Source of the DNA: a virus
Virus record (IMG/VR): IMGVR_UViG_3300030380_002838
Span: 1 to 27,711 of that record
Direction: 5' to 3' (one strand)
DNA: 27,711 nucleotides
In this document: piece by piece, positions 1-11,455 of the stretch
Numbering within the stretch: the stretch's first letter is position 1
Layout of the letters: each line of letters opens with the position of its first letter
Notes under the pieces: generated by a model
The model's database searches: none
The model's input: only the letters and a program-made list of their open reading frames with translations
What the model was told of the DNA's origin: nothing
Position numbers and translations under genes: made by a program

Positions 1-37
1 ACAAGGCGCAACAAAGAAACGCTAGAGTTGGCCTTGT
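1..37. other. Hairpin at left edge
   Basis: ACAAGGC at 1-7 pairs with GCCTTGT at 31-37. After a one-base bulge the stem continues with CAAC/GTTG, giving an 11-bp stem around a 14-base loop. It lies just beyond the terminator at 47-74 with respect to leftward transcription. It may be a second stop signal or part of an element cut by the window edge. Neither side shows a clear U-tract inside the window. Confidence 0.45.
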
Positions 38-46
38 CTATTGTAT

Positions 47-74
47 AAAAAAGGGGGCACCTCACTACCCCCTT
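47..74 (-). terminator. Rho-independent terminator, leftward operon
   Basis: Read on the minus strand, a 7-bp stem (AAGGGGG/CCCCCTT, 51-57 with 68-74) with a 10-base loop is followed by six T residues. This is the classic intrinsic terminator layout. It lies downstream of the 72-aa gene, so it would end the leftward transcript. The 100 bases between it and that gene hold only very short open frames; the longest is a GTG-started 27-codon frame at 73-156 without a clear ribosome binding site. Confidence 0.8.
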
Positions 75-174
75 AGTATCTGGTCATTTCATCCGTAAAA
101 ATAAAACCCAGACTGCTATGGTTTGAGCAGGAGTTTGAACGAAAAATGCTCGGCACTCATAGCTTACGATATTA

Positions 175-393
175 TTAAGGTCTTTTCATTGGTTTAACTA
201 ATTCATTAGAAGCAACTTGTGTTCCTTTGCAATACACATGCACGTTTTTGTGCGTTGCATAAGGAACAAATGTATTTCTAATCTTTGCTTTGTTTTCGCT
301 ACAGGCATCATAGCTTGGGAACATTAACGGATATTCTATTGTTTCTCCGTTAATACAAAAACTTAAAATCATAAATGTCCAATACTTAATCAT
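175..393 (-). CDS. Small probably exported protein, 72 aa
   Basis: A 72-residue protein of unknown function. It begins MIKYWTFMILSFCING, a short hydrophobic stretch that could be a signal sequence or single membrane anchor. A cysteine-containing polar domain with C31 and C55 follows, and these could form a disulfide in the periplasm. The start is supported by AAGGAAGG seven bases upstream. Similar small secreted proteins with a leader and two cysteines are common in marine phages, but no family name can be given with confidence. It is the last gene of the leftward operon, before the terminator at 47-74. Its coding sequence contains, on the opposite strand, one copy of the TTGTGCGTTGCA motif (248-259). 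Confidence 0.6.
   Translation of the reverse strand: MIKYWTFMILSFCINGETIEYPLMFPSYDACSENKAKIRNTFVPYATHKNVHVYCKGTQVASNELVKPMKRP
246..260 (+). promoter_or_regulatory. TTGTGCGTTGCA motif, copy E
   Basis: This stretch reads TTTTGTGCGTTGCAT and shares 13 bases exactly with the copy at 11457. It is in plus orientation but lies inside a minus-strand gene, unlike the four copies ahead of late genes. It could be an antisense promoter, a binding site with another role, or a coincidence. Confidence 0.3.
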
Positions 394-430
394 AGGTTTA
401 CCTTCCTTTTGTTTTTATTTATTATTGTTT

Positions 431-458
431 TGGGGTAGTTTCCTCAATTGCTACCCCA
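431..458. other. Hairpin overlapping the stop of the 122-aa gene
   Basis: TGGGGTAG and CTACCCCA form a perfect 8-bp stem with a 12-base loop, covering the stop codon of the leftward gene at 451-819. On the minus strand the stem is followed by an A-rich tract, not T residues, so it is not a standard terminator. It may stabilise the mRNA 3' end or weaken transcription. Confidence 0.45.
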
Positions 459-819
459 CGACACATTCTTCTCTGGGCAATCTGAATCTTGCTATACAGT
501 TATTAACTGTTGTTAAATCATCTCCTAAAATATCTGCAATATCTTCTGGTAATAAAGAATACTTTGTAAGCATTTTATTTATTGTAAATGCTTTTGCTGA
601 TACCTTTACTTTTTTATTTCTTTTACGTCCTCCTCTGCCCATTGTGTTCATTTGACTTATTTTACTGCGTTGCATTGTGTTGCCACTGCGCCCAGTATTA
701 ATTTGTTTTTCTTGTTTTGTTGCTTTGATATTCATCATCATCCCTATTTCTTTTTCGGATGGCGCTCTTCCAAACGCTTTGACAAAGCTATCAACAGTTA
801 ATTCTACAGTCTCAATCAT
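451..819 (-). CDS. Basic protein with possible C-terminal helix-turn-helix, 122 aa
   Basis: Unknown function. The N-terminal 30 residues are acidic to neutral. A central region from about residue 35 to 72 is rich in Lys, Arg, Ser and Gly and looks disordered. The C-terminal 45 residues (AFTINKMLTKYSLLPEDIADILGDDLTTVNN..., written here in two parts for length: helix LLPEDIADIL, turn GDD, helix LTTVNNCIAR) resemble a helix-turn-helix of the sigma-region-4 or MarR type. DNA binding is therefore plausible but inferred. The ATG overlaps the stop of the upstream 59-aa gene as TAATG, implying translational coupling. Confidence 0.65.
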   Translation of the reverse strand: MIETVELTVDSFVKAFGRAPSEKEIGMMMNIKATKQEKQINTGRSGNTMQRSKISQMNTMGRGGRKRNKKVKVSAKAFTINKMLTKYSLLPEDIADILGDDLTTVNNCIARFRLPREECVVG

Positions 820-998
820 TAGATATTGTACCCCTCTTTTCTAAGTTTTGTTGTAAAGTCTTTTAGTTCTTGTTGTGCTAGCTTTAATTCATTAATGATG
901 CTTGGTCTTGCATCAGGTTGATAACGTTCATCTTGCAACCGATCAACTTGTGTACGCAAGTACTTTAACATCTCTTCTTGAATTTGATTTAGTTTCAT
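819..998 (-). CDS. Small coiled-coil protein, 59 aa
   Basis: A 59-residue, charged, probably all-helical protein beginning MKLNQIQEEMLKYLRTQ. Leucine spacing in residues 2-20 and 35-52 suggests a short coiled coil. It starts six bases after GAGG and ends in a TAATG overlap with the next gene, so the two are likely co-translated. It is the first gene after the terminator at 1013-1037, so read-through or an unseen promoter must supply its transcript. Function unknown. Confidence 0.6.
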   Translation of the reverse strand: MKLNQIQEEMLKYLRTQVDRLQDERYQPDARPSIINELKLAQQELKDFTTKLRKEGYNI

Positions 999-1012
999 AG
1001 CTGCCTCTAAAT

Positions 1013-1037
1013 AAAAAAAGCAAGCCCGAAGGCTTGC
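1013..1037 (-). terminator. Rho-independent terminator within the leftward operon
   Basis: On the minus strand GGCTTGC... is read as GCAAGCC-TTCG-GGCTTGC (stem 1020-1026 with 1031-1037, four-base loop) followed by seven T residues. It sits after the gene at 1113-1478, so it would separate the recombination genes from the last three leftward genes or attenuate their expression. Confidence 0.85.
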
Positions 1038-1112
1038 CTAGTTACACAACATAAAGAGGAAGTAAACTTTTGCTGTGTCTCTATTATCTTATACTGTCCA
1101 ATAGTGTGCAAT

Positions 1113-1478
1113 CTAAAACGGTGCTTTATTTTGTGGATCAGATATTGCAAACGACATGTATGGTTTATCCCCTTTAATCTTGCGCCAACCTGCTAATCGT
1201 TTGTTGTGCTTGGGATCAGTCCAAGGTGATTGCTTATCATCTGTTTTATATATTGACCCAGTGTAATCTGGTGCACCATCTTTATCATTATCATTTGGAA
1301 ATATAGCGCCAATCTTTTCATACACTTCCATGATTTCCTTACCTTCACGTGAAGTTCTACGAATGACTGCGAGTTTTGTACTGCGCCCACCATTGTCTAC
1401 ATTACCTTGAAGTAATAGTTCCATATCATCGAACGGTGCAAATGCTGCGCCCTTATTAGTATCGTCATATTCTGCCAT
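1113..1478 (-). CDS. Phage protein, possibly DUF736-like, 121 aa
   Basis: A 121-residue protein directly downstream of the ERF annealing gene. Residues 27-60 (NVDNGGRSTKLAVIRRTSR...) and the end (KPYMSFAISDP, about 105-115) have the look of DUF736, a small family in which short strands end in a pattern like LSVKLDDP. That match is from memory and weak. Its position after an exonuclease/annealing pair would also suit a single-strand DNA-binding role. The start is supported by AAAGGAG ten bases upstream. A strong terminator follows at 1013-1037. Confidence 0.7.
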   Translation of the reverse strand: MAEYDDTNKGAAFAPFDDMELLLQGNVDNGGRSTKLAVIRRTSREGKEIMEVYEKIGAIFPNDNDKDGAPDYTGSIYKTDDKQSPWTDPKHNKRLAGWRKIKGDKPYMSFAISDPQNKAPF

Positions 1479-1507
1479 GCTTCTGGCTCCTTTATCTTAA
1501 ATTAAGT

Positions 1508-1534
1508 GGGCGGTTCTTGAGGACACCACCGCCC
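1508..1534. other. Hairpin between ERF gene and next gene
   Basis: GGGCGGT (1508-1514) and ACCGCCC (1528-1534) form a perfect 7-bp stem with a 13-base loop. No T-tract follows on the minus strand, so termination is doubtful. It may act as a processing or stability element between the ERF cistron and the next one. The same bases lie in an unassigned open frame at 1502-1603. Confidence 0.45.
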
Positions 1535-1590
1535 TTTAGTGTAGAAAAACGGATTGTCAAAAGCTGTAAAGTTATCCGCATCCTCAAGAA

Positions 1591-2046
1591 TTATGATGCC
1601 GACTTATGCCACGTCTGCGTTCGACTTTTGGTCTTCTCACTTGCCGTGTCAGCCAACGAATTTGTTTGTGTAGTAGATTGATTAGCATCATCATCTTCGG
1701 ATGGAAGATTAAGTAATGACATAATCCCATAGCGTCTTGCGTATGTAACTGCACTGCCAAGACCTTGCATATCATTCTTAGCTAATACAAGTGGGACGCT
1801 AGATTCCATTGACCAATCAGGAAAATCTTGATGATAAATTGCAGTTGCAACAAATGTTCCCAGTTCATTTGATCCGACTTGCTGACTCAGAAAGAAACCA
1901 TTGTTAGCAAGTGGCTGAGTAACAGCTTCTATGCACCCTTCAAGAGTAACATAGCGGCTGCGGAAATGTGGGTTAGTACCCTCTTTCTTTGGTGGTTGTA
2001 TTTCTGATCTTGCTTTGATTAACAAGCCAATAATATTTTTAGTCAT
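1591..2046 (-). CDS. erf: ERF-family single-strand annealing protein
   Basis: A recombination mediator of the ERF superfamily (type protein P22 Erf), which anneals complementary single strands during phage recombination. Visible signatures are NPHFRSRYVTLE at residues 25-36, GLGSAVTYARRYG at 95-107 and the acidic EDDDAN at 117-122. After residue 122 a short polar Thr/Ser/Lys tail closes the protein. At 151 residues it is shorter than P22 Erf, and the C-terminal domain seen in longer members is missing. The start overlaps the stop of the upstream exonuclease gene by four bases (ATGA), which strongly couples the two. Exonuclease plus annealer is the usual two-component arrangement, as in lambda exo/bet. 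Confidence 0.9.
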   Translation of the reverse strand: MTKNIIGLLIKARSEIQPPKKEGTNPHFRSRYVTLEGCIEAVTQPLANNGFFLSQQVGSNELGTFVATAIYHQDFPDWSMESSVPLVLAKNDMQGLGSAVTYARRYGIMSLLNLPSEDDDANQSTTQTNSLADTASEKTKSRTQTWHKSAS

Positions 2047-2828
2047 TTTACATTCCTCTTTGTTATGCGTAAGCTACCGCGCTTGTCGCGCTTTACTGAT
2101 AGTTGATCACAGTAAACCTCACGCTCGTTTTCTGCAATCATATCCTTCAAGTTTTTCTTTGCTGTTTCAAATTGTTTGTGATCGGATTCTTTATTAATGT
2201 AAGTAACGGCTGCGTCGATAAACCTGTTGTCGTATGTTGCGTCACGTGCAACCATTTCGTCCAACGGGATTTTGTCAATCGAGAGCGAGGGCGTATCGAC
2301 ACCAATCGGCTCCTCATTGCGAAGAACGTAACCCCAGAAGTCTGACACCACCGCCCACATTGAATTGAAATACTCTTTATCATAGCTAATACACACCGCT
2401 TCCCATTTGCTGTTACCAAAAATTACTGAGAGATAGCACTCTGATACACCAGACATATGCATGTATAATTGCATCTGTGGCATGTATTTTTTTACCATAT
2501 CATTCATGCTGTTAAATGCATTGGTATGTTTAGCCTCAATGATTGCACTGTAACTCAAGTTATTCCACATAGCATCAACAGTACCTTTGACAGAAACAAT
2601 ACCAATTTCATCTTTAAATTCTGATTGATGGCATGATAGTACACAGTCAAAGCTTTTCTCAAACCATTGCAGATTGAAGTCTTCAGTATGAACACCAAGC
2701 TGCACTGCTAGATTGTCAGATAAATCTTCTGATTCAATAAGACCAGTTTTGATTTGCCACAATTGTAACCAATTGCCTTGCATAATCTGGACACAATCAC
2801 TGCCCCCGATAAAACCTTTTCGGTTCAT
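2043..2828 (-). CDS. YqaJ-type (lambda exonuclease-like) nuclease
   Basis: A 261-residue predicted nuclease of the YqaJ viral recombinase family, PD-(D/E)XK fold, expected to degrade 5' strands and give 3' tails for the ERF protein. Visible motifs are FIGGSD near the N-terminus (residues 6-11), LGVHTED with E49, GTVDAMW with D85, and IIEAKH with E98 and K100; these supply the metal-binding residues. YMPQMQLYMHMSG then matches the family's usual QxxxYM region. Start chosen at the ATG preceded by GGAGGAAGT; a second ATG four codons upstream lies inside that binding site. The last four bases overlap erf. Confidence 0.88.
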   Translation of the reverse strand: MNRKGFIGGSDCVQIMQGNWLQLWQIKTGLIESEDLSDNLAVQLGVHTEDFNLQWFEKSFDCVLSCHQSEFKDEIGIVSVKGTVDAMWNNLSYSAIIEAKHTNAFNSMNDMVKKYMPQMQLYMHMSGVSECYLSVIFGNSKWEAVCISYDKEYFNSMWAVVSDFWGYVLRNEEPIGVDTPSLSIDKIPLDEMVARDATYDNRFIDAAVTYINKESDHKQFETAKKNLKDMIAENEREVYCDQLSVKRDKRGSLRITKRNVK

Positions 2829-2883
2829 TACTTCCTCCATTATTATTGTTTGATACTACTGCTTATGTGCAGCTTTATCAAGT

Positions 2884-3228
2884 CTAATTTTTTAGAATAT
2901 CCATTGCATCTTTGTATTTTTTGACAAGTTCATCATGTAATTTTTGAGAGTCACCATACATAGTAATTGCATCAAGATATGCTTGTCGGTGTGGTTCAAG
3001 CTCTGCTTCAGTAAGATACCCAAAGTGTACCAGTGATGCAGCACCACGACCCCATAACCAGTTCTCACCAACAGGTTCCTTGTTTCGTATACGATCAGCA
3101 TTTATTTTATATGCATCTGGTTGCCATGATGTATTAGAACCAAATTCTTTTTTTAATACTGGATGTGATTTGCGATTTAAACTTGCAGACCACACATCAT
3201 TTGATGCAGACTTGCTTACTGATTTCAT
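2884..3228 (-). CDS. Hypothetical phage protein, 114 aa
   Basis: No recognised family. A 114-residue protein with a basic, Ser-rich N-terminus and a central segment with GENWLWGRGAASLVHFGYLT, followed by a charged helical C-terminus (about residues 75-114). The Trp/Gly-rich middle suggests a compact fold. It overlaps the stop of no gene but its ATG overlaps the end of the 66-aa gene by four bases, so it belongs to the same cistron chain. It directly precedes the exonuclease gene. Confidence 0.65.
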   Translation of the reverse strand: MKSVSKSASNDVWSASLNRKSHPVLKKEFGSNTSWQPDAYKINADRIRNKEPVGENWLWGRGAASLVHFGYLTEAELEPHRQAYLDAITMYGDSQKLHDELVKKYKDAMDILKN

Positions 3229-3425
3229 AATTGTCTTAACCTCGAATTTACACCTAAATTGTAAATCATGCTTTCTTTTAAGTGATATAAACTTTTATGA
3301 ACCTTTTGAAGAGCTTTTGCAGTTCCTTTATCTGGGTTACAATCATTAATTATTTCTTCCAATTGATCTATAATGTAATGCATACAAACTCTATCATCTA
3401 TACAACAGTCATCATTTTCTTTCAT
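3225..3425 (-). CDS. Small acidic helical protein, 66 aa
   Basis: A 66-residue protein with three cysteines near the N-terminus (CCIDDRVC, residues 7-14) and a predicted helical remainder (YIIDQLEEIINDCN and ALQKVHKSLYHLKES). Function unknown. It shares a one-base junction with the upstream gene (stop ends at 3425) and a four-base overlap with the downstream gene, typical of a tightly packed phage operon. Confidence 0.55.
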   Translation of the reverse strand: MKENDDCCIDDRVCMHYIIDQLEEIINDCNPDKGTAKALQKVHKSLYHLKESMIYNLGVNSRLRQL

Positions 3426-3709
3426 TACGCCCTCCGCATTGGTTTGGTACGAAAGAATCCATCGTATTGTGGAAATTCTTCCATAAACTTTCTTGAATAC
3501 AAAGCAATGTAATCATTACTTATTTTGTAATCATCATCGCTGAATGTTTCGATTGAAGTTTCCCAACGGATTCTATTTGCAATCATCCATGCAGACAATC
3601 TATTGTGTCCTTTGCGTATTGCCATGAACGTAAACTTTTTAAACAGTTCATATACTTTTGGGTTGTCGGTATGAAATTTTTCAAACCTTGCAGTCAGTGA
3701 GTTTTCCAT
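3425..3709 (-). CDS. Conserved phage protein, ARFEKFHxxNP family, 94 aa
   Basis: A 94-residue protein of a recognisable but uncharacterised family frequent in phages. It opens ARFEKFHTDNPKVYELF, followed by a helical segment with RLSAWMIANRIRWET (about residues 37-51), then ISNDYIALYSRKFMEEFPQYDGFF, where SNDY(x)3YSRKFM and the closing FF are the conserved parts. The biochemical role is unknown. Such genes often sit near recombination or nuclease genes, as here between a resolvase-like gene and the exonuclease. The N-terminus overlaps the nuclease gene by 29 bases. Confidence 0.75.
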   Translation of the reverse strand: MENSLTARFEKFHTDNPKVYELFKKFTFMAIRKGHNRLSAWMIANRIRWETSIETFSDDDYKISNDYIALYSRKFMEEFPQYDGFFRTKPMRRA

Positions 3710-4031
3710 TAGCTTCCTCTAATAGTTGTTGAAATTTATCTCCTGTCATTATGACAAGCGTTTGCGGAGTTCCTCTCCGTCTTTTATAAAAGGCAATGTC
3801 TCTGCCTTCTAATACTGCGAATGGACTTGGGAAGTTAGATTTATCTCTGTACTTTACTTCACCTATTAATTCTTGTCCGTTGATTTCGAGTTTAATATCC
3901 CCTGCATACTCTCCTCCCAAGCTGCCCGAGAGGGGTTGCCTTTTCGCTTTGATTGGCGCTTTGATTTTATTGAGCCATTCGACAAACCACTTTTCGTGAT
4001 AGGTTCCTTTGTTCTTGTTTTGATTTGCCAT
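3681..4031 (-). CDS. PD-(D/E)XK nuclease, Holliday-junction-resolvase-like
   Basis: A 116-residue predicted endonuclease. E13 (in GTYHEKW), D45 (in GGEYAGDIKLE) and E58/K60 (in GEVKYR) match the catalytic signature of archaeal Hjc-type and phage PD-(D/E)XK resolvases. RQPLSGSLGGEYAGD (31-45) is particularly characteristic of the phage branch. It would cut branched DNA left by recombination or replication, fitting the exonuclease and annealer downstream. GAGGAAGACAG precedes the ATG and gives a good ribosome binding site. About 165 bases at its 5' end are overlapped in another frame by the zinc-ribbon ORF. Confidence 0.82.
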   Translation of the reverse strand: MANQNKNKGTYHEKWFVEWLNKIKAPIKAKRQPLSGSLGGEYAGDIKLEINGQELIGEVKYRDKSNFPSPFAVLEGRDIAFYKRRRGTPQTLVIMTGDKFQQLLEEANGKLTDCKV

Positions 4032-4180
4032 CTGTCTTCCTCATAACAATTCAAACATACATACCAATGTTTATTCATTGTTCTTGCATGATTGTTTTTA
4101 AGTATTGCAACGAACCATTCGGTTTTTATATCGCAAGCAATACAAGTTATATATCTCTTACCTTTTTTTGACTTCGACAT
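3866..4180 (-). CDS. Zinc-ribbon ORF overlapping the nuclease gene, 104 aa
   Basis: Starts MSKSKKGKRYITCIACD. C13/C16 and C42/C45 (CIAC and CLNC) make a four-cysteine zinc site, and the Lys-rich N-terminus suggests nucleic-acid binding. Only residues 1 to about 50 lie outside the nuclease gene. The remaining 54 or so are read from the first 165 bases of the nuclease gene in another frame and are basic and low in complexity, so the true protein may depend on this long overlap or end earlier through frameshifting. A longer upstream start (from 4282) would intrude into the HTH gene and lacks support. Confidence 0.55.
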   Translation of the reverse strand: MSKSKKGKRYITCIACDIKTEWFVAILKNNHARTMNKHWYVCLNCYEEDRWQIKTRTKEPITKSGLSNGSIKSKRQSKRKGNPSRAAWEESMQGILNSKSTDKN

Positions 4181-4397
4181 CGTAACCCAAAGCATCCAAC
4201 CAACACATGAATAAGAAACCTGATGGGATGCGTTTATGTTGTTCCCATTTGTGAACCAACGATTCGGTACAGCCAATGACATCAGCCAATTGAGATTGGC
4301 TTAATCCCGTTTCGTGCCTTGCTTCTACTAACATTTTTATTATCAGATCGTAGTTGCTTGGCAATCGTAGCTGCTTGTTGTCTACGTTCTTGCTCAT
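4158..4397 (-). CDS. XRE-family helix-turn-helix regulator, 79 aa
   Basis: A small Cro/CI-like DNA-binding protein. The helix-turn-helix covers about residues 31-54 (GLSQSQLADVIGCTESLVHKWE), with SQSQLADVIG as the first helix and CTESLVHKWE as the recognition helix. RIPSGFLFMCWLDALGYDVEV closes the domain, a combination known from many phage regulators. It has no dimerisation or cleavage domain, so it is more Cro-like than CI-like. Its first 39 codons overlap the 3' end of the upstream HTH gene in a different frame. Residues DLIIKMLVEARHETG belong to the conserved domain, so a start downstream of the overlap is unlikely. Confidence 0.82.
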   Translation of the reverse strand: MSKNVDNKQLRLPSNYDLIIKMLVEARHETGLSQSQLADVIGCTESLVHKWEQHKRIPSGFLFMCWLDALGYDVEVKKR

Positions 4398-4563
4398 GAA
4401 TAGCGTTTAAAACTTTGCTTGCAGTTAAATATCTAAGTTCTGTTTTCATTCCTATTGTTCGATAATATGTTGACGTTGGAATCTCAGCCAAGCGAAATGC
4501 TTTTAATAAATTAACATCACGCTTGACCGCTTCATCTTTTAGATACTGTAAATAAGATTTCAT
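4282..4563 (-). CDS. Putative HTH DNA-binding protein, 93 aa
   Basis: A 93-residue protein with a helix-turn-helix-like segment around residues 18-36 (NLLKAFRLAEIPTSTYYR), a second helical stretch (LRYLTASKVLNAIHEQER) and a basic, probably disordered C-terminus. This layout is seen in small phage transcription regulators. The start codon lies directly against the palindrome at 4564-4579 and has no clear ribosome binding site, since the palindrome occupies that place. This suggests translation or transcription is controlled there. The last 116 bases are shared with the XRE gene in another frame. Confidence 0.7.
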   Translation of the reverse strand: MKSYLQYLKDEAVKRDVNLLKAFRLAEIPTSTYYRTIGMKTELRYLTASKVLNAIHEQERRQQAATIAKQLRSDNKNVSRSKARNGIKPISIG

Positions 4564-4579
4564 ACTGCATGTATGCAGT
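4564..4579. promoter_or_regulatory. Palindromic operator candidate
   Basis: ACTGCAT-GT-ATGCAGT is a perfect 7-bp inverted repeat with a two-base centre. It abuts the ATG of the 93-aa HTH gene and overlaps the stop codon of the previous gene by one base. Its size and symmetry fit a dimeric HTH protein binding site, suggesting autoregulation by one of the two HTH proteins encoded next. As RNA it could also fold and block ribosome loading. I saw no second copy of the palindrome. Confidence 0.5.
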
Positions 4580-4839
4580 TAAAAATCTATTTGGTCAACC
4601 TCAGTTGTGATTATACCAAGCCCACCACATTCTGAGCACTCAACTTTCTTCACATCAACGACACCAATATCCCGATTGAAATTATGAGGGCGAGGTACAT
4701 TTACCTCAACCTCACCATCACCATCACAACTTTCACAGAAAGCAAGGGCTTTATGTTTTGTTTTATAAAAGACATCATCAAAGATTTTGCTCAGCATTAT
4801 CTCCATTGCCATTGCATGATTAATAGGGGATGTTGTCAT
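4579..4839 (-). CDS. Small CxxCxGxG zinc-binding protein, 86 aa
   Basis: An 86-residue protein with two zinc knuckles like those of the DnaJ cysteine-rich domain: C35/C38 in CESCDGDGEVEV and C68/C71 in CSECGGLGIITT, about 30 residues apart. It has no J domain, so it is not a DnaJ. Such free-standing modules occur in phages and probably bind one zinc ion. The start at 4839 is chosen because GGAGC sits seven bases upstream; a frame open further upstream would run through the neighbouring gene. It overlaps that gene by 20 bases. Role unknown. Confidence 0.7.
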   Translation of the reverse strand: MTTSPINHAMAMEIMLSKIFDDVFYKTKHKALAFCESCDGDGEVEVNVPRPHNFNRDIGVVDVKKVECSECGGLGIITTEVDQIDF

Positions 4840-5032
4840 CGATCTGCTCCATTCTACATTCTTGATAGTTTTCTTCCCATGCTTCAATAGCGCGAGCAAC
4901 AAACTTATCTTTATCAAATTTAGAATTAAGTGCTTGCAGTTTATCAGCAAGCTCTTCAATGTGAGTAGGCCAATGCATCATTGGCGCTATCTCATCTGCT
5001 ATGAATTCATAGTCTTTCTTAGTCATTGGCAT
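4820..5032 (-). CDS. Conserved small phage protein, 70 aa
   Basis: A 70-residue acidic helical protein: YEFIADEIAPMMHWPTHIEELADKL, then ALNSKFDKDKFVARAIEAWEEN. The pattern (LADKLQALNSKFDKDKF) is familiar from small conserved proteins of phage and plasmid origin that accompany recombination or DUF932 genes, but they have no assigned function. The start lies 14 bases inside the upstream 53-aa gene, and the end overlaps the zinc protein. A good candidate for an accessory early protein. Confidence 0.65.
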   Translation of the reverse strand: MPMTKKDYEFIADEIAPMMHWPTHIEELADKLQALNSKFDKDKFVARAIEAWEENYQECRMEQIDDNIPY

Positions 5033-5180
5033 TTTGTTGCTCCACTAATTCCTCCATTGAAATAAAAAACTTTACATGAACAAACCCACCTTGCATTGAT
5101 GATATAGCATAATCATGTGGACAAGTTTTGAGCCACTGTAATAGTGACTCAATATTTTTAACTTGAACTGTGATCATCAT
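5019..5180 (-). CDS. Very small early protein, 53 aa
   Basis: A 53-residue protein starting MMITVQVKNIESLLQWLKT and ending in an acidic tail. It begins inside the 3' end of the DUF932 gene, with GGGAG ahead of the double ATG (5180 or 5177), and ends inside the next gene. A longer open frame continues upstream to 5375, but that part is antisense-free shadow of the DUF932 gene and is not claimed. Predicted alpha/beta fold; function unknown. Confidence 0.5.
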   Translation of the reverse strand: MMITVQVKNIESLLQWLKTCPHDYAISSMQGGFVHVKFFISMEELVEQQNAND

Positions 5181-6021
5181 AGAACTCCCAGTGTTTACTA
5201 CGCATTGCTGATGCAATAGCTGCTTCTCTGTTATATCTTGCAGTATGCGGTGAGCGTAACTCCTGAGTGTGAGTTGCCCAGTAAGTAAGGCAATTGTACA
5301 GCGCCCACTTGTTACGCCCAAGCTCTCGACATTCATTACCCCAAATCTCAAGCAACTTTTCAAGTTGCCTTTCATTTGTTTTTGTAACTTGTGTTTGTCG
5401 GGTGAATGCTTTTGCTATTGTGTTCTTGAAGAACTTTTCAGCCATTGGTGTAGTAACTGTTGTTTGCATGTAGCTTTGCCACCGTTCTTTTTGTGACATG
5501 AAATGATGAAGACCGTTAGTAATCTTTGCTGCACTGCCTTCGACATTGATCGATGTAGTATGCTTGTAACGAGTACGAGCAACTACATCTGGTGTGGTGC
5601 AGCCGTTCAAGCACCATAGTCTAAGACCACTAGCTGCTTGTGAGAATGACCATGATCCATCATAGCTGTTGAAAAAATCAACTTTGAATTTAACATAGTC
5701 ACCAACTGTAGGCTCAACAACCAAATCATTAAATAGTATTTCACCTCTGAGTTTACGACCATCTTCAAGTACCTTTACATTACATTTATAATCATCAGAT
5801 AGATTGGCTGATGAAACACTATCTAAAATAGAATTTACAACATCATCGTGACGAACCATTTTATAACGTGATCCATGCACACCCAATGATTGATTGGTAT
5901 CAGTACGAACTACATGTTGAGAGCCTTTGATCTCTTCACCATGTTGATCGAACACTGGTTGCATTTCAACATCAAATTCCCAGTAATTAGCCAACTGGTT
6001 TGGCGTTAGATAATCAAGCAT
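5158..6021 (-). CDS. DUF932 family protein
   Basis: A 287-residue protein of the DUF932 (phage/plasmid-like TIGR03299) group. Visible conserved parts are LGVHGSRYKMVRHDDVV (about residues 46-62), the central GDYVKFKVDFFNSYDGSWSF, and SGLRLWCLNG with the following basic helix. The C-terminus holds the usual YNCLTYWATHTQEL segment. Family members are common in plasmids and phages and are thought to act in DNA metabolism, without a proven activity. The start is set at the ATG after AAGGAGGAAGTA; an ATG 13 codons upstream has no such site. It is the first gene of the leftward operon, 65 bases from the promoter candidate. Confidence 0.85.
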   Translation of the reverse strand: MLDYLTPNQLANYWEFDVEMQPVFDQHGEEIKGSQHVVRTDTNQSLGVHGSRYKMVRHDDVVNSILDSVSSANLSDDYKCNVKVLEDGRKLRGEILFNDLVVEPTVGDYVKFKVDFFNSYDGSWSFSQAASGLRLWCLNGCTTPDVVARTRYKHTTSINVEGSAAKITNGLHHFMSQKERWQSYMQTTVTTPMAEKFFKNTIAKAFTRQTQVTKTNERQLEKLLEIWGNECRELGRNKWALYNCLTYWATHTQELRSPHTARYNREAAIASAMRSKHWEFYDDHSSS

Positions 6022-6085
6022 TACTTCCTCCTTGCTTGTTGTTGGTGCACATATGCACAAGTTAAACCTATACTGTACAACAATT

Positions 6086-6115
6086 ATTGTAAAGAAAATT
6101 ATTATCTATTGTCAG
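6086..6115 (-). promoter_or_regulatory. Sigma70-like promoter for the leftward operon
   Basis: Minus strand: CTGACA (6110-6115), an 18-base AT-rich spacer, then TACAAT (6086-6091). Each hexamer matches the consensus in five of six positions. The DUF932 start codon is 65 bases downstream, and no terminator lies between. This suits transcription of the early block by host RNA polymerase. Confidence 0.6.
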
Positions 6116-6213
6116 TATAAGAATGAGATTGATGAACTATTTGTGTGCAAAAAAGCTGCTGCACACACACAGTATGAAGCCCACCTCGCGGCTTGGCGTT
6201 GGTTCCTTGAGTG

Positions 6214-6268
6214 CACTTCGTTTACCAAGTCACAATAGTTCTCTGTTTCTCGTTTACACTTCGTTTAC
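6214..6268 (+). repeat. Short direct repeats CACTTCGTTTAC / TCGTTTAC
   Basis: A 12-base sequence, CACTTCGTTTAC, occurs exactly at 6214-6225 and 6257-6268. Its core TCGTTTAC occurs a third time at 6250-6257. Three copies within 51 bases in a noncoding region resemble iterons or a protein-binding array; they could serve replication or transcription control. Confidence 0.5.
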
Positions 6269-6284
6269 TCGAACAAGAGTATAA

Positions 6285-6322
6285 GGCTGTGTCCGCCAGT
6301 CACAAAGTGCCTGGCAACAGCC
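6285..6322 (+). other. Two-part hairpin
   Basis: GGCTGT/ACAGCC forms a 6-bp outer stem and GCCAG/CTGGC a 5-bp inner stem, separated by a four-base bulge on one side and a single A on the other, with an 11-base loop. This is the most stable fold of the left noncoding block. Confidence 0.55.
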
Positions 6323-6369
6323 GTTGTTCTTTAACCCAGTAAGCGAGCGAAGCGAGCGAAAAATTTTTT

Positions 6370-6400
6370 GGGAGGCCTTTCAGCCTCCCTCCTTTTTCTT
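6370..6400 (+). terminator. Strong hairpin terminator, possibly bidirectional
   Basis: GGGAGGC-CTTTCA-GCCTCCC (6370-6389) is followed on the plus strand by TCCTTTTTCTT. Read leftward, the stem is followed by six A and then five T residues, so it may also stop transcription of the gene at 6416-6931. The plus-strand version is the better intrinsic terminator. Confidence 0.75.
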
Positions 6401-6415
6401 AAAGGTGTCGGTAGT

Positions 6416-6931
6416 CTATTTGACTATCTTAATACCTTTATTCGCTAAGCGTTCAGCTCTGCTTATCGGTTTCTTGACTGCCTTTCTTCCTGCGGAATAA
6501 GGCTGCCAAGCTTCGCCTGTTTCAGTCTTGAAGACCTCACAACAAATATTGTGTAAGGCTTGCATGTCTGCCTCTTCAGTCTGTCTGACTTCGAGGCGTT
6601 CGGCTGCCGCGTCAAGAATAGCTCCCGCGTTCGCTACGTGTTTCTCAACTGCGTCTTCAGCCTCAATAACTTTCGTCTGCTCTTGCATTACATAAAAACG
6701 AATGCCGTTATAATTATCCGAGCCATTAAGCAGAAAGTAGGTAGCTGAACATAACTGTCGAGCAAGAGCCTTTGCTGTCCTGTCATTTGTTCCAAATGCA
6801 GTTACCAAAAGCTCTACTGCTTCGGTTGCCATATCAAATATAGCTGTGCCACCTACGTTATCGGATGTTATTGTTGCCTCAACGCCATTAACTTCGTCAA
6901 GAGCTTTAGTATCAACTTTAGAATTTGCCAT
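6416..6931 (-). CDS. Hypothetical phage protein, 171 aa
   Basis: A 171-residue, Ala/Glu-rich, largely helical protein, not assigned to a family. Residues 30-75 form a helical segment (AIFDMATEAVELLVTAF...) including LARQLCSATYFLLNGSD. The middle has a charged, possibly coiled-coil region (EAEDAVEKHVANAGAILDA). The C-terminus is basic with KAVKKPISRAERLANKG. The start follows AGGAGATACAAA, a good ribosome binding site. It stands alone between two structured noncoding blocks, with a terminator right behind its stop. It may be a protein that works with the neighbouring RNA or DNA site, but that is only inference from place. Confidence 0.72.
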   Translation of the reverse strand: MANSKVDTKALDEVNGVEATITSDNVGGTAIFDMATEAVELLVTAFGTNDRTAKALARQLCSATYFLLNGSDNYNGIRFYVMQEQTKVIEAEDAVEKHVANAGAILDAAAERLEVRQTEEADMQALHNICCEVFKTETGEAWQPYSAGRKAVKKPISRAERLANKGIKIVK

Positions 6932-6972
6932 TTTGTATCTCCTATATTAGCCATTATCTAAATTAATTTGAA

Positions 6973-7394
6973 CCTGCCGAGGGAGTGGCAGGACAATTGC
7001 GTCCAGAAGCGTCGAGCAAGAGCCATACGCGCAGCAAGGCTGCGCTCAAGTAAACTGCAATAGCAATAAACTATGGCGGTGACCATCAAGAACAATTACG
7101 GAAGGTTCATTCAAACCCGAGCGTTATGGCGCTCGGAACGCTAAAGTGTATGAAAGCCGTCATTGTACTTGTTGGACACTTGCCGTTGCTTCACAACGCC
7201 ATTGACCTGCTACTCCCGAACAGGTCAAATACCCCCCTCAAGGGGGGTGGTATACTCGTTTGCCTCAAGCAAACTCATTCCTTCATAAGTTTGGAGTATG
7301 AGGTCTTGCGCTAAAGACCTCAGGACAAGTCGATACTCACCCTTCGGGTCGAGACACCCTTGTGGCTCGATTCATGAGTAGCGCGGTTTCGCGC
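6973..7394. ncRNA. Large structured noncoding region, candidate RNA
   Basis: No convincing reading frame exists between 6932 and 7613. Perfect hairpins seen in order: 6973-6992 (6 bp), 7029-7045 (7 bp, AAG loop), 7117-7136 (7 bp), 7202-7228 (8 bp), 7231-7248 (7 bp, TCAA loop), 7258-7274 (6 bp, CTCAA loop) enclosed by ATACTC/GAGTAT at 7252-7257/7294-7299, 7299-7322 (9 bp), 7339-7349 (4 bp), 7349-7370 (5+3 bp with one mismatch) enclosed by TACTCA/TGAGTA at 7334-7339/7375-7380, and 7381-7394 (5 bp). Such density in a low-GC genome and the nested stems favour a folded RNA over chance. The strand is undecided because perfect stems read equally both ways. Size is in the range of large phage RNAs such as GOLLD and ROOL, but no homology is claimed. 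Confidence 0.5.
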
Positions 7395-7440
7395 AAAAAA
7401 GAGAGCGAAGCACAATAAACGCGCGAAATGGCCCACCCCC

Positions 7441-7533
7441 TGTCAACATGCTCAAGGTATGAGTGACGCCACGTAACTTGTGTAATGACGTACGGTAATG
7501 ACTTGACACACTGTTGACAAAACGAGCATGTTG
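7441..7533. repeat. Inverted repeat with internal direct repeats
   Basis: CAACATGCTC (7444-7453) and GAGCATGTTG (7524-7533) are exact inverted copies 70 bases apart. Between them are two GTAATGAC copies with a 13-base period (7482-7489, 7495-7502) and two TTGACA copies (7503-7508, 7514-7519), with a third TTGACA on the minus strand at 7441-7446. Clustered symmetric and direct repeats right before the small terminase gene fit a protein-binding site, perhaps for terminase or for transcription control. Confidence 0.45.
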
Positions 7534-7552
7534 GGGGGGATCATAGGGGGGG
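7533..7552 (+). other. G-quadruplex-type motif
   Basis: Two runs of exactly seven G separated by ATCATA (7533-7539 and 7546-7552). Each run can supply two GGG tracts with a one-base loop, so the stretch fits the canonical four-tract pattern. A third G7 run lies just after the small terminase gene at 7992-7998. Such runs stand out in this AT-rich genome. Confidence 0.5.
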
Positions 7553-7613
7553 TTATCCAGACGGAAAGCACTTTACTCCATGTTTATAAAGGTACATGTA
7601 ACTCGGGTCTATA

Positions 7614-7988
7614 ATGAACATAGAAAGTAGAAAACTAACGCCTAAACAACTAGCTCTGGTGGATACGCTTGTAGCAACTGGGTGTTCAGTAAGAGCCGCA
7701 GCAGAACAAGCAGGGTATGCTATAGGTGAATCAGGAAGGGTAAGCGCATCCAAGGCTTTAGCTCAACCACATGTGCAACAGTATATGATGCAACGTGTTG
7801 GGGAGCAGTTAGGTATGAACGCTACGGTTGCAGCTGCGAAGGTATTGAAGCTTGCCACTGGTGCTCGGTCTGAGCATGTACAGCTAGAGGCGAGCAAAGA
7901 CATTCTTGATAGAGCAGGGTTCAAACCAATAGATCGATCTCAGGTACAAGTTGCTGGGGACATCAAGGTCAGCATTGATCTGGGTTAG
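7614..7988 (+). CDS. terS: Probable terminase small subunit
   Basis: A 124-residue protein resembling small terminase subunits: KLTPKQLALVDTLVATGCSVRAAAEQAGYA (residues 7-36) is a helix-turn-helix DNA-binding segment of the type these proteins use to recognise packaging sites. A helical oligomerisation region with LEASKDILDRAGF follows, and a short beta-rich tail (VQVAGDIKVSIDLG). It would bind the concatemer and load the large subunit at 9932. The start is the first ATG after an in-frame stop at 7599; no good ribosome binding site precedes it. It is the first late gene. Identification rests on sequence pattern and position, so a general HTH protein is the alternative. Confidence 0.7.
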   Translation: MNIESRKLTPKQLALVDTLVATGCSVRAAAEQAGYAIGESGRVSASKALAQPHVQQYMMQRVGEQLGMNATVAAAKVLKLATGARSEHVQLEASKDILDRAGFKPIDRSQVQVAGDIKVSIDLG

Positions 7989-8056
7989 TACGGGGGGGCA
8001 AAAACTGCAATACATTATGTTGCTAGTAGTCTACCACTCTCATTTTTCTTAAAAAC

Positions 8057-8070
8057 AATTTGTGCGTGGT
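8057..8070 (+). promoter_or_regulatory. TTGTGCGT motif, copy A
   Basis: AATTTGTGCGTGGT lies 43 bases before the ATG at 8103 and 71 before the gene at 8131. It shares TTGTGCGT with four other copies and is followed by an AT-rich stretch. It stands in the 142-base gap after the small terminase gene, where a promoter for the next block would be expected. Confidence 0.45.
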
Positions 8071-8130
8071 TAAAAATATTTTTTTAGTGTAGGGGTCGAT
8101 ATATGTTTAATTGGCTAAAGAGATTTTGGT

Positions 8131-8451
8131 ATGGCAAGGTTCAAGACTCCTTCATGGCAGAGGAAAGCGGGTCAGAATCCCGAAGGTGGTTTAAACGAGG
8201 AGGGTCGGCGCAGCGCAAAAGCGCAGGGGTCAAATCTAAAGCCCCCAGTAAAGTCGGGGGACAATCCAAGAAGAGCAAGCTTTCTAGCAAGGATGGGCAA
8301 CGCAAAGGGTCCAGAAAAGGACGAGAAGGGAAAGCCAACACGGTTACTTCTAAGTCTAAGGGCGTGGGGAGCAAGCAGCAAAGTAGACGCAAGGGCGAAA
8401 GCAAGAGCAATAAGCAGAAGAAACAAAGCTAAGAAGAAAAGGACAGCATGA
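8131..8451 (+). CDS. Basic phage protein, DUF6321-like
   Basis: A 106-residue very basic protein. FKTPSWQRKAGQNPEGGLNEEGRRSAKAQG at its start (residues 4-33) followed by NLKPPVKSGDNPRRASFLARM and KDEKGKPTRLLLSLRAWG matches the pattern of DUF6321 phage proteins (WQRKEGKNPxGGLN...). Function of that family is unknown; the charge suggests binding to DNA or RNA. It begins the chain of basic small genes between the two terminase genes. A second open frame from 8103 to 8432 overlaps it almost entirely and has the better ribosome binding site (AGGGG), but this frame has the recognisable family sequence. Confidence 0.85.
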   Translation: MARFKTPSWQRKAGQNPEGGLNEEGRRSAKAQGSNLKPPVKSGDNPRRASFLARMGNAKGPEKDEKGKPTRLLLSLRAWGASSKVDARAKARAISRRNKAKKKRTA

Positions 8452-8594
8452 TGCCAATGGGTAAAGGAACATACGGTGATAAGGTTGGAAGACCTAAGAA
8501 AAAGAAAAAGACGTTACTTTCGTCAAAGCAGAAAACGTTACCATCTTCTTTGAAAAGAAAGATAGTGAAAGCTAAGTCTGGTAGTTCTTATTAA
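8448..8594 (+). CDS. Small basic phage protein, 48 aa
   Basis: Reads MMPMGKGTYGDKVGRPKKKK then a Lys-rich linker and LPSSLKRKIVKAKSG. PMGKGTYGxxxGRP and the C-terminal LPxSLKxKI are recurring features of tiny proteins in related phages. AAAAGGA sits seven bases upstream and the ATG overlaps the previous stop (ATGA), so translation is coupled. Probably nucleic-acid binding or a short virion component; function unknown. Confidence 0.75.
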   Translation: MMPMGKGTYGDKVGRPKKKKKTLLSSKQKTLPSSLKRKIVKAKSGSSY

Positions 8595-8595
8595 A

Positions 8596-8769
8596 ATGGC
8601 TAAGAAGAAAAAGAGTTTACTTAAACTGACTAAACGTCAGGAGCAAACTATGAAGCGTCATAGTGAACATCATACTTCTAAGCATATGAAGGTAATGAGA
8701 ACTGCAATGTTAAAAGGCTCTACTTTTGGTGAAGCTCATAAATTAGCTAAGAAAAAAGTTGGTACATAA
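8596..8769 (+). CDS. Small basic phage protein, 57 aa
   Basis: A 57-residue helical, Lys/His-rich protein: LTKRQEQTMKRHSEHHTSKHMKVMRTAM followed by FGEAHKLAKKKVGT. The LTxRQxxxxxxHxxHHxxxHM part recurs in small phage proteins near terminase genes. It starts one base after the previous stop and ends in a TAATG overlap with the next gene. Function unknown. Confidence 0.75.
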   Translation: MAKKKKSLLKLTKRQEQTMKRHSEHHTSKHMKVMRTAMLKGSTFGEAHKLAKKKVGT

Positions 8770-8939
8770 TGGCGGTTAATGCAGCAGGTAATTATACTAA
8801 GCCTAAGATGCGTGCTAGTTTATTTCGTAGGATAAAAGCAAAGGCTACTCATGGTACTGCGGCAGGGCAGTGGTCGGCTCGAAAGGCGCAGTTATTAGCC
8901 AAAGAATATAAGAAACGCGGTGGAGGATACAGATCGTGA
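8769..8939 (+). CDS. Small basic phage protein, 56 aa
   Basis: A 56-residue basic protein with KPKMRASLFRRIKA and GTAAGQWSARKAQLLAKEYK, ending in GGGYRS. KPxMRxxLFxxIKA...GQWSARKAQLLAKxYK is a conserved pattern in small marine phage proteins. The last codons double as the ribosome binding site (GGAGG) of the next gene. Function unknown. Confidence 0.78.
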   Translation: MAVNAAGNYTKPKMRASLFRRIKAKATHGTAAGQWSARKAQLLAKEYKKRGGGYRS

Positions 8940-9172
8940 GAGCACCGCAGCGTTCTTTGCTTAACTGGGGCAAGCAGAAATGGAGAACTAAATCTGGTAA
9001 GAAGTCTAGTGAAACTGGTGAACGCTACCTTCCTAGCAAGGCTATTGCTGCTCTTAGTGATGCTGAGTATCGCGCTACAACCAGAGCCAAACGAAAGGGT
9101 AAGGCAAAGGGTAGGCAGTTTGTGGCTCAACCGAAAAAGATTGCTAGGAAAGTAAGGAGATACAGATCATGA
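8936..9172 (+). CDS. DUF5872-like basic phage protein, 78 aa
   Basis: A 78-residue basic protein with NWGKQKWRTKSGKKSSETGERYLPSKAI followed by ALSDAEYRATTRAKRKG and QPKKIARK. This is close to the DUF5872 pattern (W-x-KQKWRTKSG...GERYLP). It starts with GTG overlapping the previous stop (GTGA) after GGAGGATACAGATC. Function unknown; strong positive charge fits nucleic-acid contact. Confidence 0.82.
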   Translation: MRAPQRSLLNWGKQKWRTKSGKKSSETGERYLPSKAIAALSDAEYRATTRAKRKGKAKGRQFVAQPKKIARKVRRYRS

Positions 9173-9486
9173 GTAAAGAGACAGCACCGTTTAAAAGAAA
9201 AGCACAAAGTTTGATAAAGCAAATAAATCAAGACTTATCAAATATGAAACTTACAAGCAGTGAAGTTTTGCAATATAAGTTTAAGCCTGACCCTAATCTT
9301 TCAAAAGCGCAACAAAAGAAAAGACAGCCCGATTCGACTTCTATGTTTTCTGATGCAAAAATTTTATTAAGAAGAGGTATTGCTAAATTAAAAGGAAAAC
9401 CATCTTCTTCTGATCTTGTTAAGCAAAGAACTACATTGCTTAATCATTTAAATAAAATAAAAGAATTTGAAAAAAGTAGACCATAG
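9169..9486 (+). CDS. Basic helical protein, 105 aa
   Basis: A 105-residue Lys-rich protein of unknown family, with a helical N-terminal half (KAQSLIKQINQDLSNMKL) and a helical C-terminus (TTLLNHLNKIKEFEKS). Its ATG overlaps the previous stop (ATGA) and follows AAGGAGATACAGATC, nearly the same sequence as the one used by the gene before it. Low GC relative to the preceding basic genes may indicate a different origin. Confidence 0.65.
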   Translation: MSKETAPFKRKAQSLIKQINQDLSNMKLTSSEVLQYKFKPDPNLSKAQQKKRQPDSTSMFSDAKILLRRGIAKLKGKPSSSDLVKQRTTLLNHLNKIKEFEKSRP

Positions 9487-9495
9487 GACATAACA

Positions 9496-9738
9496 ATGGG
9501 ATGGATAATAGCAAATTCTGGTGAAGATTATGATGGAGAAACTCATGAGCTTGCTGGAACTACATACACAGGCAAGACAAGAACTTCTGAGTCTCGAAGA
9601 CTTGTATGGGTTGTAGGTCAACCTTTAAGCAAAATACTTGAAAAGCCTAAGAAAAAGAAACGTGCTAGGGATTCTAAGGGTAGGCTAAAGGCTGATGATC
9701 CTTCTACACCAGATATAAACGAGGCTTGGGAACAGTGA
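9496..9738 (+). CDS. Hypothetical phage protein, 80 aa
   Basis: An 80-residue protein with an N-terminal half of likely beta strands (GWIIANSGEDYDGETHELAG...RRLVWVV) and a highly charged C-terminus containing KPKKKKRARDSKGRLKADDP, followed by TPDINEAWEQ. The last part resembles tails of small phage proteins near terminase genes. The start lies nine bases behind the previous stop. Function unknown. Confidence 0.7.
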   Translation: MGWIIANSGEDYDGETHELAGTTYTGKTRTSESRRLVWVVGQPLSKILEKPKKKKRARDSKGRLKADDPSTPDINEAWEQ

Positions 9739-9935
9739 GTTTTGTTAATGCGCTAAAGCAAGAAGATTTAAATGCTTTGAGAGAAGCTGTTAGAAAAATA
9801 CATTTTAAATATTTTCCAGAAAAGCATGGTTCATCTTTTGTTACTAATGCAATGGTTGATCAGATTATTGATTGGTATGGACCTGAGGTTGTGGAAAAAT
9901 CTATGAAGGTATTGGTAGATAAAGGTCTAAGATGA
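9735..9935 (+). CDS. Small phage protein before the large terminase, 66 aa
   Basis: A 66-residue, mostly helical protein (NALKQEDLNALREAVRKIHFKYFPE, then MVDQIIDWYGPEVVEKSMKVLV). GTG at 9735 is chosen as start because it overlaps the previous stop as GTGA, the arrangement used elsewhere here; TTG at 9726 is an alternative. It overlaps the large terminase ATG by four bases, so the two are probably translated together. Function unknown. Confidence 0.65.
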   Translation: MSFVNALKQEDLNALREAVRKIHFKYFPEKHGSSFVTNAMVDQIIDWYGPEVVEKSMKVLVDKGLR

Positions 9936-11455
9936 TTGATTTTAAGTACAAGCCTGACGGTGAAGTGCTAAAATCCTTTATGAAGGATAATACTTTTTTT
10001 CGTGGGATAAGGGGGCCAGTTGGTAGTGGCAAAAGTGTTGGCTGTTGTGTCGAGGTATTTCGTAGAGCGTTACAACAAAAGAAAGGGCCAGACGGCCTTA
10101 GAAAGTCTAGATGGGCTATTATCCGAAACACAAACCCACAGTTACGAACTACAACTATTAAAACATGGCTTGACTGGTTCCCAGAGTCCAACTGGGGAAA
10201 GTTCACATGGTCAGTCCCCTACACTCACAATATTAAAAAGGGTGACATCGATCTTGAAGTAATCTTCCTTGCCCTTGATCGTCCAGAAGATGTTAAAAAA
10301 TTATTGTCCCTTGAGTTAACAGGCATCTGGATAAACGAGGCAAGGGAGATACCAAAGAGTATTATCGATGCATGTACTATGCGTGTTGGTCGTTTCCCAA
10401 GTATGAAAGATGGGGGTCCAAGTTGGACAGGGGTTATTGCAGATACTAACGCGCCAGAAGAAGATCACTGGTGGCCTATAATGTCTGGTGAAGTTCCAGT
10501 GCCAGACCATATTCCTAGAGAACAAGCTAACATGTTAGTTAAACCTGACAATTGGCAATTTTTTACGCAACCACCTGCTATGTTAGAAGTACGTGATGAA
10601 GATGGAGAAGTAAAAGACTACGAATCAAATAAAACTGCTGAAAACAAAAAGCATATGATGCAGAATTATTATTATAATTTGTTACGCGGTAAAACAAAAA
10701 GTTGGATCGATGTCTATGTTATGAACAGGCTTGGAACAATCCAAGATGGAAAACCTATTTATCCCATGTTTGCATCTGATGTTCATATTTCTAAAGAAGA
10801 AATTGCAGTAGCAGCTAATGCTCCATTGTATATTGGCTTAGATTTTGGATTAACGCCAGCAGCAACATTAGGTCAAAAAATTCGAGGGCGTTGGTTAGTT
10901 CAGTCAGAAGTTGTAGCTTTTGATATGGGAATCGTACGTTTTGCAGAAGTTCTTCGTGAGGAAATATCTACCCGATTTTCTCAATGTTCTGATGTATATA
11001 TTTATGGCGACCCTTCTGGCGACTTTAGAGCGCAGACTGATGAATCTACACCTTTTCATATTCTGCGTGGCGCGGGCTTACGGGCTTACCCTGCTCCGAG
11101 TAACTCCGTTGATCTTCGACTTGAATCCGTTTCCTCCCAACTTGGAAAGATGGTTGAAGGCAAGCCTGCGTTTTTAATTGATAGGCGGTGTCAACAGTTG
11201 ATAAAAGGTTTCGAAGGTGGTTATCAATATAAACGTATGGAAGTTAGTGGTGAACGATACGCAGATAAACCTGATAAAAATATGTATTCTCATATTCATG
11301 ATGCTCTACAGTACATGATGTTAGGCGCAGGTGAAGGAAGAGCGTTGTTAAATAGTCAAAAACCTGCGCGTACTATTGTAGCAAGTCGTAACTTTGATGT
11401 ATTTAAAAAACAGAACACAAAACAAAAAAGACAAGGTTTGTGGGCTAGAATGTAA
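9932..11455 (+). CDS. terL: Terminase large subunit
   Basis: A 507-residue DNA packaging motor and nuclease. The Walker A motif GPVGSGKS is at residues 28-35. The Walker B region is GIWINEAREI (131-140), with N135-E136 in place of the usual D-E. The nuclease domain shows three acidic residues in conserved settings: D304 (YIGLDFG), D360 (YIYGDPSGD) and D457 (HIHDALQYMML). Length and order (ATPase then RNase H-like nuclease) match T7-like and related terminases. It acts at the portal, filling the prohead and cutting the concatemer. The start overlaps the previous gene (ATGA). Confidence 0.95.
   Translation: MIDFKYKPDGEVLKSFMKDNTFFRGIRGPVGSGKSVGCCVEVFRRALQQKKGPDGLRKSRWAIIRNTNPQLRTTTIKTWLDWFPESNWGKFTWSVPYTHNIKKGDIDLEVIFLALDRPEDVKKLLSLELTGIWINEAREIPKSIIDACTMRVGRFPSMKDGGPSWTGVIADTNAPEEDHWWPIMSGEVPVPDHIPREQANMLVKPDNWQFFTQPPAMLEVRDEDGEVKDYESNKTAENKKHMMQNYYYNLLRGKTKSWIDVYVMNRLGTIQDGKPIYPMFASDVHISKEEIAVAANAPLYIGLDFGLTPAATLGQKIRGRWLVQSEVVAFDMGIVRFAEVLREEISTRFSQCSDVYIYGDPSGDFRAQTDESTPFHILRGAGLRAYPAPSNSVDLRLESVSSQLGKMVEGKPAFLIDRRCQQLIKGFEGGYQYKRMEVSGERYADKPDKNMYSHIHDALQYMMLGAGEGRALLNSQKPARTIVASRNFDVFKKQNTKQKRQGLWARM

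Follow-up and report, generated by a model that had tools for sequence, protein, structure and literature searches.

What occupies the gap at positions 6932-7613, from which the genes of this marine virus diverge, was the question of the present analysis. The window is the whole stretch of DNA analysed, a record of 27,711 nucleotides (27.7 kb). Its leftward genes are the 171-aa gene bordering the gap, a DUF932-type gene, a RecE-like exonuclease and an ERF recombinase; its rightward genes are the terminase small subunit gene (TerS), TerL (9932), a portal/head-tail adaptor (12024), the capsid (15126) and tail proteins. The 171-aa gene gave no PHROG or Pfam family match, and a search of the window with ARAGORN found no tRNA. 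The leftward gene at 4579-4959 showed a weak Q-like antitermination match (phrog_127, E 1e-4) and, with Pfam, a sub-threshold DnaJ-type zinc-finger pattern. A second noncoding structured gap (6061-6415; z -4.7 on the minus and -3.9 on the plus strand) separates the 171-aa gene from the DUF932 gene; many relatives have structure in the corresponding gap too, and it is often stronger on the minus strand.

In agreement with an earlier note on this DNA, no convincing gene was found in the gap. A small protein was considered and rejected because indels break the frames; neither the 52-base net insertion in the related locus L003 nor the two-base indels in L005 keep a reading frame. The note had also described about ten perfect hairpins at 6973-7394. 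The block is indeed rich in hairpins, but a strict count (perfect Watson-Crick stems of at least 6, loops of 3-14, non-overlapping) yielded seven rather than ten, compared with a shuffle mean of 0.96 (maximum 5 in 200 shuffles), and nowhere else in the window did 422 bases contain more. The proposed enclosing pairs, ATACTC (7252-7257) with GAGTAT (7294-7299) and TACTCA (7334-7339) with TGAGTA (7375-7380), are present, and the block is richer in GC than its surroundings, as had been stated (0.52 vs 0.375 in the window). The proposed limits marked the right place and were slightly short, since a last helix pairs TTTCGCGC (7387-7394) with GCGCGAAA (7421-7428) and the element thus ends near 7434. 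Folding of the gap was better than that of shuffled sequence on both strands (z -7.5 on the plus and -5.9 on the minus strand), and the plus strand of the delimited RNA folded better still (Table 1). Both ends of the RNA, 6967 and 7434, are inferred positions set by conserved pairing only. No convincing plus-strand promoter was found upstream of 6967. A search for terminator-like sites found none; this included intrinsic terminators after 7434 and between the RNA and TerS.

Table 1. Positions of the structured RNA, its parts and the neighbouring elements in the window
Feature	Position	Strand	Remarks
171-aa gene, divergent	6416..6931	-	Hypothetical protein; synteny anchor; relatives in 28 loci
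Whole structured RNA	6967..7434	+	~468 nt; z -9.0 vs shuffles; homologous helices over full span
5' (alpha) domain, an internally branched rod	6967..7230	+	Helix-by-helix replacement in L171, L184, L196, L003; alignment A5
Hairpin K1	6973..6992	+	CCUGCC[GAGGGAGU]GGCAGG; replaced by AACCGACC/GGUCGGUU in L171
Hairpin K2	7202..7228	+	UUGACCUG[...]CAGGUCAA; loop complementary to K1 loop
Linker	7231..7299	+	C6/G6 hairpin 7231-7248; hairpin 7258-7274 inside pair 7252-7257/7294-7299
3' (beta) domain	7298..7434	+	Hairpin, three-way junction (7334-7339/7375-7380), final helix 7387-7394/7421-7428; models R1/R2, covariation
Adjacent control region	7441..7519	.	TGTCAA (7441-7446), TGACG-type palindromes, TTGACA (7503-7508, 7514-7519); conserved in alignments
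Paired G-tract	7533..7552	+	GGGGGGGATCATAGGGGGGG; companion element
TerS	7614..7988	+	phrog_2538, E 1.6e-13; synteny anchor

When IMG/VR was searched with TerS and TerL, more than 100 related loci were obtained. In most of these, a gap of 300-900 bases separated a small leftward gene from TerS; the gaps had a GC content above the window average and usually folded better than shuffles, with a minority that did not (e.g. L061, L064, L067 and L074). Between lineages sequence was barely conserved across the gap; the match to the window extended over the full gap in L003 (86%), was confined to the right half in L004 and L005, and was limited to ~90 bases near the right end in L006 and L007. A search with the leftward protein added L171, L173, L177 and L179, whose gaps carry recognisably homologous RNA, and DNA patterns of the 3' domain and of the 5' domain found L181, L184, L186, L189, L190, L192, L194 and L195, and L196, L198 and L199, respectively. 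Each record held one copy of the RNA. Most related phages have structured gaps at the same place with no detectable sequence relation to that of the window, and compensatory pairs occurred inside several of these unrelated-looking groups (small alignments). On sequence grounds, the term one family holds for the window's own domains only. In Pelagibacter phage EXVC031P Hodr, the TerL of which is 64% identical, a shorter rod occupies the same position (z -7.3). The fold of Hodr and of groups A (L050-like) and C (L041, L080) takes in the start of the leftward gene, an overlap not found in the window, which hints at a cis role in those phages. Upstream of TerS in L041, L055, L076 and L080, very strong rods (z about -9 to -16) extended over the leftward gene's ribosome binding site. 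Searches of annotated phages by blastn with the gap, the L194 RNA and the L050 RNA matched nothing, and scanning of 84,980 genomes with the 3'-domain pattern found 0; TerL relatives in this genome set were for the most part MAG contigs from unrelated phyla, which indicated no host. One record, L200 (IMGVR_UViG_3300030103_001648, 1-10425), was near-identical to the window around the RNA, and genes for an SU10-type portal, a scaffold, a capsid and an endolysin stood upstream of the shared early genes; an assembly chimera or a genuine swap of structural modules may account for this.

Covariance modelling was applied to the 3' domain only, with a first model (R1) built from 8 sequences. The E-values of R1 and of the second model (R2) are rough; the window scored 1e-26, and R1 recovered the held-out members L199 (1.7e-20), L034 (2e-18), L195 (1e-13) and L190 (2e-7), with weaker matches in the same gap of L114, L178, L173, L179, L069 and L013. 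The second model added L029 and L033 in syntenic position with marginal scores. All confident matches lay on the TerS strand and ahead of TerS in every record that includes TerS. Among the 18 confident members, 93% of cells were paired (83.1 +/- 0.7 in shuffles) and 19 of 40 pairs had both sides changed (7.7 in shuffles, none of which reached the observed number), figures somewhat biased in favour of the structure because the alignment was fitted to it. When the partner was slid as a control, pairing dropped to 36-46%, and RNAalifold recovered essentially the same 3'-domain structure from the raw MAFFT alignment. The helices of the 3' domain showed U-A/U-G exchanges, and L005 carried a paired deletion (CCC-UUCG-GGU to CC-UUCG-GU).

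The helix arms of the 5' domain were picked by hand and then checked by script. In the window, L003, L196, L171 and L184, helix order and pairing were retained while the sequence was replaced: P3 occurred as GCCAUA/UAUGGC, GGCAC/GUGCC or GCCAC/GUGGC, P6 as ACAAU/AUUGU, GAAU/AUUC or CAAU/AUUG, and P8 as CCGAGCG/CGCUCGG or CGGAUGC/GCAUCCG. Parts of this domain were also common to L173, L177 and L179, in other sequence. The loop GGGAGU of K1 (6981-6986) is complementary to the loop ACUCCC of K2 (7212-7217), and L171 (10 pairs) and L184 (7 pairs) retain the complementarity although the sequences differ. Judged by complementarity only, K1 and K2 may form kissing loops; alternatively, the same bases can join in one long intramolecular helix of 12 pairs, the form predicted to have the lowest energy and apparently the only one used in L177 and L179. 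The linker was not retained in all relatives, and a common pairing of C- and G-tracts was rejected since L184, L196 and L198 lack the C6/G6 hairpin. In L190 the 5' domain is group-A-like and the 3' domain is of the window type, and in L192, L195 and L181 still other 5' domains are joined to the window-type 3' domain. Since the combinations of 5' and 3' domains differ between phages, the RNA is mosaic. In the 5' domain of L179 and L177, hairpins with the motif CCTGC...GCAGGTTAACAG were nested within one another, as if the RNA were growing by repeated insertion of one module. The earlier note had preferred a large structured phage RNA to spaced terminators, and homologous loci, covariance model and compensatory changes all agree with it: the stems were kept among homologues and folding was better than in shuffled sequence.

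The strand was assessed from single mismatches inside helices of Watson-Crick-only folds in 50 non-redundant loci; pairwise G-U and A-C counts over all predicted pairs were noisy, and the mismatch test was used instead. On the plus strand, 93 G-U mismatches stood against 27 A-C mismatches, with 66 G-U expected from composition, and the per-locus tally was 33 loci against 7. Folding of the opposite strand gave the mirror result, and a coding control showed no such bias (G-U:A-C = 31:44). The excess of G-U over A-C points to the plus strand, and the RNA most likely reads toward TerS. Strand-biased C-to-T mutation could mimic the G-U signal; composition was corrected for, and the GC skew within the RNA was near zero. 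The same asymmetry, together with the U-A/U-G exchanges and the paired deletion in L005, argues against an element that acts at the DNA level only (as a cruciform, an operator array or an origin) and gives no functional RNA. Such an element would fit the folding of both strands, the operator-like adjacent palindromes and TTGACA repeats, and the RusA-like and recombination genes carried by phages of this group; we consider it extremely improbable. The G-U test also weighs against regulation of the divergent leftward gene, in which a minus-strand 5' leader or a plus-strand antisense RNA would hide its ribosome binding site. The outer helix of groups A, C and Hodr covers both the start codon and the ribosome binding site of this gene, but in the window 35 bases lie between the leftward start and the fold, the site staying free, and regulation of this kind appears quite improbable.

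Between the RNA and TerS lie a control region, which probably acts at the DNA level and does not belong to the RNA, and a paired G-tract. The latter, often GGGGGGAGAGAGGGAGAGGGGGG, preceded TerS by about 30-60 bases (median 30 nt) in 88 of 98 loci, the other loci mostly having shorter G4-G5 variants; outside this site it occurred twice in 1.14 Mb of strand and in none of the shuffles. A minus-strand promoter with TTGACA at 7446 was rejected, as there was no -10 box at 17 bases and the box was not universal. Late transcription might start at the G-tract, or the tract might serve for packaging or for R-loop formation; as a packaging site it may be compared with SPP1, in which pac overlaps the TerS promoters (PMC6316719). 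An R-loop at the downstream G-tracts would be expected if the RNA, like ColE1 RNA II, were a pre-primer from which host enzymes start replication of the phage DNA. The succession of a structured RNA of ~470 nt and a unique, strongly conserved paired G-tract is consistent with this, as is the lack of a DNA polymerase or helicase among the early genes of the window and the tested early genes of Hodr. It is nevertheless distinctly unlikely, since Hodr has a replication-initiation-like protein (phrog_1408, E 5e-10), which points to an ordinary origin, and since the G-tract might equally be a pac site or a late transcription start (cf. SPP1, PMC6316719).

Because the promoter-like TTGACA and the G-tract separate the RNA from TerS, the RNA need not be a TerS leader. 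If the RNA served the late operon in cis, as a leader or control RNA, a plus-strand transcript running through the fold into TerS would be subject to antitermination, stability or translation set by the fold for the packaging genes. Precedents for cis-acting late leaders are put RNA and the lambda pR'/Q leaders. The place and direction before TerS are fixed in most loci, no terminator was found between the RNA and TerS, and there is the Q-like match at 4579-4959, although this match is weak and Pfam points elsewhere. The conserved TTGACA and G-tract suggest that TerS has a promoter of its own, and 470 ornate bases far exceed what known antitermination RNAs need. A leader function is rather unlikely.

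We favour, with a probability of roughly 0.5, a large two-domain noncoding RNA, encoded from ~6967 to ~7434 on the plus strand toward TerS, that acts as a free-standing RNA in scaffolding or assembly. Structure, compensatory changes, plus orientation, place before TerS and domain swapping were observed as described; that the RNA acts free-standing rather than as a leader is what we infer, and this was ranked highest because the RNA is large and branched, has conserved loops, occurs once per record and is separated from TerS by the control block. Transcription of the plus strand would proceed from ~6967 to ~7434, heading to TerS, and in the folded transcript K1/K2 would close a rod-like 5' domain, with a three-way junction in the 3' domain. 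The RNA would accumulate during infection and work as a scaffold or in assembly, as in the cages of GOLLD and ROOL, possibly associating with itself by way of the loops of K1 and K2, which are complementary. A bolder form of the free-standing reading, in which these loops would join copies into an RNA-only particle of a modular self-assembling class whose 5' and 3' domains recombine while the assembly logic is kept, is unlikely. The RNA is absent from Rfam, and many marine tailed phages carry it in a constant neighbourhood. Domain swapping provides natural experiments on which parts of the RNA matter, the distant counterpart in the cultured phage Hodr makes expression and deletion testable in an isolate, and the unique paired G-tract beside the RNA is a second, separately testable element.

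With regard to known RNAs, the earlier note had left homology to GOLLD and ROOL open. An Rfam search of the window and 7 relatives at the gathering score matched neither these nor any other family, and relaxing the threshold to E up to 5 gave only whalefall-1 (E 1.3); literature searches did not find a description of this RNA. To our knowledge, very few classes of large phage RNA have been recognised, and their functions are open. The element is several hundred nucleotides long, elaborately and conservedly structured, phage-borne and noncoding, like other large ornate phage RNAs. It is best read as a new family of large "ornate" noncoding RNA of phages, similar to GOLLD and ROOL in kind and a member of neither. 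The lambda pR' 6S leader and HK022 put are structured RNAs before late genes and in the same direction, as here, but the present RNA is far larger and more branched, and a conserved promoter-like block precedes TerS. ColE1 RNA II is a pre-primer in which a structured RNA of ~500 nt is followed by a G-rich tract; the arrangement is alike, whereas a priming role here would be by analogy only and these phages may encode an initiator themselves. GOLLD and ROOL form RNA-only cages; GOLLD has a conserved 3' region and a less conserved 5' region, and ROOL, with 659 nt in the solved example, is RNA-only and has kissing loops (PMC12286853). The RNA described here resembles GOLLD as a large structured phage RNA, found in marine samples too, with a better conserved 3' than 5' part and with loop-loop contacts (here as complementarity), and differs in length (~468 nt vs >800 in many GOLLD members), in having no Rfam match and no tRNA in the window, and in its fixed position before TerS. 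From ROOL it likewise differs in Rfam match, in having no tRNA island in the window, in its fixed position before TerS and in the swapping of domains among phages; it resembles ROOL as a large ornate phage RNA, with complementary loops where ROOL has kissing loops.
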